Assembly: GCA_030690545.1 (NCBI GenBank)
Contig: JAUYGN010000097.1
Coordinates: forward strand, 1 to 40,366
Direction: 5' to 3'
DNA from: Solirubrobacteraceae bacterium
GTDB taxonomy: Bacteria; Actinomycetota; Thermoleophilia; Solirubrobacterales; Solirubrobacteraceae
DNA: 40,366 bases
The notes under the pieces were generated by a model that did no database searches, was not told where the DNA came from, and was given only the letters and a program-made list of their open reading frames with translations. Both the position numbers and the translations under genes were made by a program. Positions within the stretch are counted from its first letter, which is position 1; every line of letters begins with the position of its first letter. This document shows positions 38,108 through 39,859 of the stretch, in pieces.

Positions 38108-38536
38108 ATGACGCAGCAGACCTACGTGTTCAAGGCCGAGCTCGTGGGATTCCAAGAAGTGCGCCGCACGATCACCGTTCGCGGCGACGTGACGCTCGTC
38201 GACCTGCACTACGCGCTGCAGTCGGCGTTCGGCTGGGACGACGACCACCTGTACTCGTTCTGGCTCGACGGCGCGTTCTGGGGACCGGAGGACAGCCACT
38301 ACATGCACCCCTACCACGCCATCTCGCTCGATCCGCCGGGCCGCAGCGCCTGCGTGCCGCTCGACGAGCTGCGCCTGTCCGAGCGCCAGCGGATCGCCTA
38401 CCTCTTCGACTTCGCCGCGGAGTGGCGCGTCGCGCTGACGCTGCAGGAGATCCGCGCGCTCGACGGGCGCGCGGCGACGCGCTGCATCGAGTCCGTCGGC
38501 GCCGCCCCGCCGCAGTACGCGCAGGCGCTCGGGTAG
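38108..38536 (+). CDS. Plasmid pRiA4b ORF-3 family protein
   Basis: A 142-residue protein recalling the pRiA4b ORF-3 (TnpR-like) family: TYVFKAELVGFQEVRRTITVRGDVTLVDLHYALQSAFGWDDDHLYSFWL, then YLFDFAAEWRVALTLQEI. The family consensus is a strand, R-x-I-x-V, L-x-D-L-H--L--AFGW---HL--F, then the Y-DFG--W-H-I motif; here the last is FDFAAEWRV. Members occur on plasmids, in phages and on chromosomes; the function is unknown. The start has a strong GAGAGGAG ribosome binding site. No transposase is nearby. Confidence 0.8.
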   Translation: MTQQTYVFKAELVGFQEVRRTITVRGDVTLVDLHYALQSAFGWDDDHLYSFWLDGAFWGPEDSHYMHPYHAISLDPPGRSACVPLDELRLSERQRIAYLFDFAAEWRVALTLQEIRALDGRAATRCIESVGAAPPQYAQALG

Positions 38537-38539
38537 CGG

Positions 38540-38806
38540 CTACTCGGCGGGCGGCGCGATCAGCGCCGCGGGCGCCAGCGCGTAGAACGTCGCGGCGGCC
38601 GGCGCGCCCGCGGGCGTCGTGCCGCCGATGACCTCCAGCAGCGGCTTGTGGCCGATCAGGCCGCCGTTGGCCGTGACGAACGCGTCGGCTTCGGCGCGGC
38701 GGTCCTCGGGCAGCTCCCCGGCGTTGAGCACGATCATCCCCTCCGGGCGATCTTCGGTCTGGACGAGCGGCAGGTCGAGCAGGACTTCTCGGATGTCTAC
38801 GGGCAT
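38540..38806 (-). CDS. Small unknown protein directly behind tRNA-Thr
   Basis: An 88-residue protein, MPVDIREVLLDLPLVQ then GMIVLNAGELPEDRRAEADAF and an Ala/Pro-rich hydrophobic C-terminus (TTPAGAPAAATFYALAPAALIAPP). I do not recognise it. ATG 38806 lies 2 bases after the tRNA-Thr 3' end, so no ribosome binding site is possible outside the tRNA itself; the next in-frame Met is 24 codons on. It may be read from a tRNA-mRNA co-transcript or start further in. The stop is 3 bases from the convergent pRiA4b-family gene's stop. Confidence 0.55.
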   Translation of the reverse strand: MPVDIREVLLDLPLVQTEDRPEGMIVLNAGELPEDRRAEADAFVTANGGLIGHKPLLEVIGGTTPAGAPAAATFYALAPAALIAPPAE

Positions 38807-38808
38807 AG

Positions 38809-38881
38809 AGCCGACGAGCGGATTCGAACCGCTGACCCCTTCATTACGAGTGAAGTGCTCTACCAGCTGAGCTACGTCGGC
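38809..38881 (-). tRNA. tRNA-Thr (anticodon CGT)
   Basis: A full cloverleaf on the minus strand: acceptor stem GCCGACG/CGTCGGC with discriminator T, D-arm AGCTCAGCTGGTAGAGC, anticodon stem CTTCA/TGAAG with loop CTCGTAA (anticodon CGT, reads ACG, threonine), a short variable loop and T-arm AGCGG-TTCGAAT-CCGCT. It is 73 bases with no encoded CCA. Confidence 0.95.
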
Positions 38882-38959
38882 GCGAGGCTCGCGAATGCTA
38901 GCGCCACGACGGCCGGTTGCCTCGACGCGTCGACGGCGGCGATCGGCCATCATCGCGCG

Positions 38960-39859
38960 GTGTCATCCGACGAACGGGCGCCCACGTTCGACCTGCAGTC
39001 ACACTCGACGCGCTCGGATGGGTCGCTCGAGCCTGCCGGCGTGGTCGCGGCCGCAGCGGCCGCCGGCGTGCAGCTGCTCGCGCTGACCGACCATGACACG
39101 GTCGCCGGCGTCGACGAGGCGCTCGCCGCCGCCGCCGAGCACGCGATCACGCTCGTGCCGGCCGTCGAGATCTCGACCGTCGACGAGCTCGGCGAGGACT
39201 TCCACGTGCTCGGCTACGGGATCGATCACGAGAATCCTGTCCTCGGCGCGCGGCTCGCGGAGTGGCGCGCCGACCGCGCCGCGCGGATCGACCGCATGGC
39301 CGCTGCCCTCGACGAGCTCGGCCTGCCGCCCGACCGGACCGAGATCGAGACGCGCCGCGCCGCCGGGCTGCCCGTCGGGCGTCCCCATCTCGCGGCCGCC
39401 GCGATCGCCGCCAACCGCGAGCGCCTGCGAGCCGACGGCCTCGACGAGACCTCGGCGTTCCTCGAGGCCTACCTGTGCAGCGGCGGCGCCGCCTACGGCC
39501 GCCGCACGATCCCGACGGTGCCCGATGCGATCGCGACGATCCATCGTGCCGGCGGCGTTGCCGTCTGGGCGCATCCGTTCTGGGACGTCGACAGCGACGA
39601 CGACGCCCGCACGGCGCTGGAGCGCTTCAGCGCCGCCGGCATGGACGGCGTCGAGGCCTTCTACACGACCCACGACGGCGCGCAGACGCGGCTGCTCTGC
39701 GATCACGCCGAGCGCCTCGGCCTGCTGACGACGGGCTCGGCCGACTTCCATGGCCCGCAGCACAAGCGCTTCTCGCGCTTTCGCGCCTTCGAGCTGCACG
39801 GCCGGCAGCCGCGGCTGGGGCCGATCGGCTCGGTCGGCGGCCCGCGACCGCAGCGCTGA
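38960..39859 (+). CDS. PHP-domain phosphoesterase
   Basis: A 299-residue PHP-family metal-dependent phosphoesterase, of the group that includes 5'-3' nucleases and 3',5'-nucleoside-bisphosphate phosphatase (TrpH/RnaAM-like). Metal-ligand motifs: DLQSHSTRSDGSLEPAGVV (H-x-H-like with x=S), LALTDHDTVAGVDEAL (TDHDT), VPAVEIST (E), VAVWAHPFWD (H) and TTGSADFHGPQHKR (D-x-H). The segment PVGRPHLAAAAIA typical of the family insert is present. The start GTG 38960 follows tRNA-Thr on the other strand; the domain begins 10 residues later. Confidence 0.9.
   Translation: MSSDERAPTFDLQSHSTRSDGSLEPAGVVAAAAAAGVQLLALTDHDTVAGVDEALAAAAEHAITLVPAVEISTVDELGEDFHVLGYGIDHENPVLGARLAEWRADRAARIDRMAAALDELGLPPDRTEIETRRAAGLPVGRPHLAAAAIAANRERLRADGLDETSAFLEAYLCSGGAAYGRRTIPTVPDAIATIHRAGGVAVWAHPFWDVDSDDDARTALERFSAAGMDGVEAFYTTHDGAQTRLLCDHAERLGLLTTGSADFHGPQHKRFSRFRAFELHGRQPRLGPIGSVGGPRPQR

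Follow-up and report, generated by a model that had tools for sequence, protein, structure and literature searches.

The DNA analysed here, called the window, is a stretch of 40,366 nucleotides (nt) from a Solirubrobacteraceae bacterium (assembly GCA_030690545.1, contig JAUYGN010000097.1, positions 1 to 40,366), in which a tRNA-Thr gene is followed almost without a gap by the start codon of an open reading frame (ORF) of 88 codons. The product of this ORF, a conserved small protein, is labelled P88, and the genome that contains the window (3.5 Mb, 149 contigs) is referred to as G000. The features of the locus are as follows.

38895..38900, minus strand: candidate -10 box TAGCAT of the tRNA promoter, 13 nt 5' of the tRNA, with a putative function
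38809..38881, minus strand: tRNA-Thr, anticodon CGU, discriminator U at 38809, 3' CCA not encoded
38807..38808, minus strand: spacer C-U (38808, 38807) between tRNA and start codon, a single base U in two sister species
38540..38806, minus strand: P88 ORF, 88 codons, AUG at 38806-38804 and stop codon at 38542-38540

The tRNA-Thr(CGT) was called on the minus strand by both ARAGORN (38808-38881) and Rfam (38809-38881, 72.1 bits). Read as RNA, the junction runs ...GUCGGC-U, ending in the discriminator, then C, U, and AUG CCC GUA GAC.... An earlier note on this DNA had reported that the discriminator, two bases and the ATG of the ORF stand in direct succession, and the sequence confirms it. By itself, an ATG that follows a tRNA after 0-3 nt is unremarkable, since such an ATG opens at least 40 codons behind 2 of the 44 tRNAs of G000, one of them credibly, and since 113 of 232 genomes of the order contain a match to the pattern described below. 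What goes beyond chance is a conserved gene with an invariant Met1 at the junction in four species. The second case in G000, behind tRNA-Glu(TTC) with the ATG at 3 nt and an ORF of 126 amino acids, looks by eye like an antisense frame and was rejected.

Homologs of P88 were found by protein search in five of the six other genomes of the genus (G001 to G006) and in none of 54 further relatives, whereas a profile search detected P88 in 10 of the 232 genomes of the order, the four outside the genus giving weak matches. The named contigs that carry a relative of P88 come from metagenome-assembled genomes. Identity to the window protein ranges from 86 to 47%, and 30 positions are invariant, among them Met1, which is kept in 6/6 sequences, including copies that do not directly follow a tRNA. 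The ratio of nonsynonymous to synonymous substitution rates (dN/dS) was 0.15, 0.20, 0.20 and 0.27 in the four within-cluster pairs and 0.41-0.95 in the other eleven; to judge by the close pairs, P88 is under purifying selection. The protein had no match in Pfam, NCBIfam or PHROGs up to E = 1, and its predicted structure (medium confidence, pLDDT 75.8) had none in the PDB at E <= 0.001. Two doubts raised by the earlier note, that the ORF might not be conserved or might begin at its internal Met, are not borne out: with G000 included, P88 is present in six of the seven genus genomes, and at the internal Met24 both G004 and G001 have Thr, whereas Met1 and eleven further positions ahead of Met24 do not vary, so that a start at Met24 was rejected. 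An upstream start that would fuse tRNA and ORF into a frame of 137 amino acids running through the tRNA was also rejected, as stop codons close this frame in G004 and G001. In G001 (L005/L070), the first 18 codons and their CTTATG context occur twice owing to an in-frame tandem duplication of 54 nt, and the ORF behind its tRNA-Thr (103 amino acids) consequently has two similar candidate starts.

The junction reads CT-ATG in G000 and G003, and T-ATG in G004 and G001. It is therefore kept, with 1-2 nt, in four of the seven genus genomes, and occurs in two sub-clusters of the genus despite the change of the spacer between 2 and 1 nt. G002 has an unrelated small gene inserted between the tRNA and P88, whose ATG is preceded by GGGAG at a distance of 8 nt. 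In G006, the tRNA-Thr lies 12.2 kb from P88 (L116, 4921-17129), and the segment is absent at this place in four sister genomes. In G005, which is 77% complete, P88 was not found, and different sequence follows the tRNA fragment that lies at a contig end. The conservation of the tRNA-ORF junction that the earlier note had proposed to check thus holds in four genomes and fails in G002, G006 and G005. In G016 (L109), one of 39 genomes of other genera in which the orthologous tRNA was surveyed, tRNA-Thr(CGT) is followed after 1 nt by a GTG that opens more than 329 codons.

No Shine-Dalgarno sequence (SD) precedes P88 at the junction, where the upstream bases are the 3' part of the tRNA plus CT or T. 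A -10 box of the form TAnnnT was found in none of the four junction copies within the 60 nt upstream of P88, and the box about 7 nt before the start that marks a primary leaderless promoter is likewise missing from all four. Among the nine family members that are not directly behind a tRNA, five (L006, L020, L022, L023 and L024) lack an SD and have a TAnnnT whose end lies 6-8 nt before the start, compared with a background of 27 out of 1286 ATGs preceded by TAnnnT at that spacing; the TAnnnT criterion was chosen after some sequences had been seen, and the background counts ATG only while L024 starts with GTG. On these motifs, more than half of the non-junction family looks leaderless. The P88 gene of G006, 12.2 kb from the tRNA, has a -10-like box. 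Upstream of tRNA-Thr, the motif CTAnnATTC is present in 5/5 aligned genus genomes (G005 and G006 are outside the alignment). In all four junction copies, the first 40 nt of P88 rank with the least structured parts of the gene, at most 2 of 43 other windows being weaker. A 3' CCA is encoded in none of the 44 tRNAs of G000, as is characteristic of RNase Z-type processing, and the genome contains an RNase Z homolog that scores 291.9 bits, just below the model cut-off of 292.95. Within the genus, an SD accompanies both cases in which an inserted gene separates tRNA and ORF, namely P88 in G002 (GGGAG) and selA in G000 (GGAGG).

Junctions behind other tRNAs were sought in the order with the T-arm pattern GGTTCGANTCC followed by an ATG 0-3 nt behind the discriminator, which captures only part of the tRNAs and gave the count of 113 genomes. 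From the matches listed, we read 30 loci, 100 of 115 further ones and four P88 loci added deliberately, 134 in all, of which 86 contain a confirmed tRNA (48 are without an ARAGORN tRNA); 31 of these 86 open an ORF that is 100 codons long or longer. From each repeated family, one or two members were compared with Pfam, L148-L150 and L188 not being among them. Pfam supported an SRAP protein 3 nt behind tRNA-Leu(CAA) in two genera; an SDR oxidoreductase behind tRNA-Tyr, with the spacer T, in four genomes of two genera (Pfam on one); a metallo-beta-lactamase-fold enzyme behind tRNA-Arg(CCG); a Polyketide_cyc2 protein behind tRNA-Gly(TCC) and a class IV aminotransferase behind tRNA-Lys, each in two genomes; DapB behind tRNA-Leu(TAG); a GlmU-like nucleotidyltransferase behind tRNA-Gln; an amine oxidase and another FAD enzyme behind tRNA-Cys; a DNA methylase behind tRNA-Arg(TCT); and a SHOCT protein behind tRNA-Ser. 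The SRAP protein begins MCGR, and its start is pinned because Cys2, which we take to be the catalytic residue, follows Met1. Long junction ORFs without Pfam support are found at L160, L179, L194, L229, L233 and L245, the last two representing a long membrane-protein-like ORF common to two genomes, 3 nt behind tRNA-Arg TCT. In a sample of the phylum, 249 of 396 genomes contain the same pattern. We read 50 loci; at L375, L382 and L399-L402, a GlmU-like gene starts 1-2 nt behind tRNA-Gln(TTG), and at L379 a TadA-like gene starts 2 nt behind tRNA-Ser, these proteins being named by eye. Other actinobacteria also show junctions such as ...CACCATG, in which the A of the CC-A behind the discriminator can double as the A of the ATG, and many of the ORFs inspected are short.

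The most telling parallel to tRNA-Thr/P88 is tRNA-Sec/selA. A tRNA-Sec with discriminator G, a single T, and the ATG of selA follow one another in G001, G002, G004 (twice, on different contigs) and G006; the spacer is 2 nt in G170, and in G107 it is selB that begins 1 nt behind tRNA-Sec. The tRNA-Sec loci with selA, or in one case selB, at 1-2 nt are L183, L185-L188, L227 and L181, with L188 identified from the selA search. In G000 (L345, contig 37), 551 bp with ORFs separate tRNA-Sec from selA, and the selA start, preceded by GGAGG, still reads CGTATG.

The likeliest route to P88 appears to be a near-leaderless mRNA that is made by tRNA processing and translated, to which we assign a probability of roughly two in three. 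tRNA-Thr and P88 would be co-transcribed from the tRNA promoter, and because the tRNA has no encoded CCA, a cut at or just behind the discriminator would be required, most likely by RNase Z. The mRNA left by this cut would begin 0-2 nt before the AUG and would be translated as a leaderless mRNA, with the tRNA 3' end replacing the transcription start at the junction. Such a scheme would resemble mitochondrial tRNA punctuation, yet at single sites of a bacterial genome. We infer the shared transcript, the cut site and the leaderless translation from the sequences; this part of the earlier note's proposal is retained as the simplest route, because the junction leaves no room for an SD and all four junction copies are without TAnnnT.

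Several observations weigh against this route. The orthologous tRNA of 39 genomes from other genera is never followed within 3 nt by an ATG that opens at least 40 amino acids (in this survey, 5 of 49 loci gave no CGT tRNA). The P88 family is not wholly leaderless, as three of the nine non-junction members carry SD-like sequence (L002, which is G002, and L018 and L021, whose less certain starts were judged at the likeliest ATG), and L019 has neither SD nor TAnnnT. In other genera of the order, selA genes at a greater distance from tRNA-Sec (L326, L327 and L329, with uncertain starts) have no clear SD by eye, so that separation from the tRNA does not generally mean an SD. An mRNA with a 5'-monophosphate end is possibly short-lived. 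In addition, a 2-nt leader may be weaker than a start exactly at the 5' end, where an ATG or GTG suffices in mycobacteria (PMC4633059).

The spacing controls point in the same direction. Of the 232 genomes, 113, 158 and 145 contain a match with the ATG at 0-3, 4-7 and 24-27 nt, respectively, and tRNA-confirmed ATGs open a supported gene in 7/18, 5/21 and 5/19 cases. The latter were counted in 30 loci per spacing among the matches listed, where the scan covered open-ended ORFs and those of 100 codons or more; of the 7, three are homologous to a gene that was tested, and one of the 5 at 4-7 nt is a sub-cut-off HTH match. An enrichment of starts at 0-3 nt over the two controls was thus sought and not found. 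A constant short tRNA-Gln/glmU spacing across the phylum was likewise rejected: tRNA-Gln lies upstream of glmU in 13 of the 30 best-scoring glmU loci, a biased sample, with ATG candidates at 37-289 nt, and none of the 13 has a start codon at 0-3 nt, although a TTG stands at 4-5 nt in three. Because 0-3 nt is not enriched and tRNA-Gln/glmU spacers are long elsewhere, the junction is best regarded as one of many possible spacings, and it looks tolerated rather than specially selected.

These controls favour a reading that concerns selection and is compatible with the processing route: genes would lie at many distances behind tRNAs, a few of them by chance at 0-3 nt, and their mRNAs may be leaderless with nothing being regulated. 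We consider this quite probable, as the junction was lost in G002 through the inserted gene and is absent in G006 and G005, even though its occurrence in two sub-clusters while the spacer shifted between 2 and 1 nt, and the joining of tRNA-Sec with selA, an enzyme acting on that tRNA, are less easily accommodated. The further suggestion of the earlier note, that tRNA maturation is linked to translation of the small protein, is weakened as a regulatory device by the lack of enrichment at 0-3 nt and by the inserted gene of G002, which breaks the link. Most likely, the placement at the junction is tolerated because leaderless initiation is possible in these bacteria, and has not been selected as a regulatory switch.

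The remaining alternatives differ from the processing route in how the P88 mRNA would arise or be read. P88 might have its own promoter inside the tRNA gene, so that transcription would start at the AUG and yield a primary leaderless mRNA. The -10-like box 6-8 nt before the start in 5/9 non-junction family members would suit such a promoter, but with TAnnnT, the one box type examined, in none of the four junction copies over 60 nt upstream, we regard it as improbable. We give no better chances to translation of an uncut tRNA-P88 transcript by SD-independent initiation at the internal AUG. Its first 40 nt are weakly structured, and weak structure generally favours SD-free initiation; against this, the AUG is only 2-3 nt from the tRNA acceptor stem, and a chargeable tRNA has to be cut at that site anyway. 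That the ORF is unexpressed, or is initiated at Met24, would fit a protein that belongs to no known family, but is very hard to reconcile with the purifying selection in close pairs and with the replacement of Met24 by Thr behind an invariant Met1 and eleven further invariant residues, and we give it next to no credence.

Beyond P88, the processing route raises the possibility, in our view a doubtful one, of an actinobacterial tRNA punctuation, in which tRNA 3' maturation would make many leaderless 5' ends, and some pairs, above all tRNA-Sec/selA with its single base, would tie the amount of an enzyme to the maturation of its own tRNA. If this were true, bacterial RNase Z would produce mRNAs, tRNA genes would act as removable 5' leaders, and leaderless mRNAs would have a second source beside transcription initiating at the AUG. 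The mitochondrial mode of mRNA production would then be present in free-living bacteria too, and the expression of selA, glmU-like and SRAP genes 1-3 nt behind a tRNA, without an adjacent ribosome-binding site or promoter, would be explained.

On its other side, P88 (end at 38540) faces a convergent gene with the Pfam domain PRiA4_ORF3, which ends at 38536, 3 nt away. The gene order PHP - tRNA - P88 - PRiA4-like - GlcD-like is common to G000-G004, with GlcD truncated by the contig end in G003. The PHP-domain gene (38960-39859 of the window) is divergent from the tRNA and lies on its upstream side in five of the genus genomes (3.7 kb off in G001); its matches to models of nucleoside bisphosphate phosphatase and RNase RNM stay below threshold.

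The tRNA punctuation of mitochondrial transcripts was reportedly described by Ojala, Montoya and Attardi in 1981. At P88, as in that system, the start codon is directly behind the tRNA 3' end, and the 5' end of a leaderless mRNA would be expected from tRNA excision. Unlike the mitochondrial case, where most mRNAs are bounded by tRNAs, P88 is a single site, the one credible case among the 44 tRNAs of G000, and with 2/44 such starts no genome-wide layout is found there; the processing, too, is our reading of the junction. In E. coli thrT-tufB, a tRNA and a protein gene are in one transcript, as is proposed for tRNA-Thr/P88, but the mRNA retains an SD-bearing leader, whereas P88 would be left practically without one. 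Streptomyces coelicolor cleaves several CCA-less tRNAs no more than a few nt past their 3' end, and mRNAs whose leaders are shorter than 10 nt are counted as leaderless there (PMC4681348). The leaderless mRNAs of actinobacteria, as presented in two studies (PMC4681348, PMC4633059), resemble P88 in having no SD and a 5' end expected a few nt from the AUG; their 5' ends are transcription start sites, however, and that of P88 would arise by RNA processing. Both studies mention the E. coli endonuclease MazF, which generates leaderless mRNAs together with stress ribosomes (PMC4681348, PMC4633059); here too an endonuclease sets the 5' end near the AUG, although it is a stress toxin and does not act in tRNA maturation. 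Titles and abstract openings, in which subscription journals were barely covered, contained no report of bacterial leaderless mRNAs from tRNA 3' processing. The nearest cases in the literature are an archaeal small nucleolar RNA, for which release by RNase Z from a transcript shared with tRNA-Arg is likely, and a tRNA-Lys of Thermococcus that lies within a 5' untranslated region (PMC4247193).
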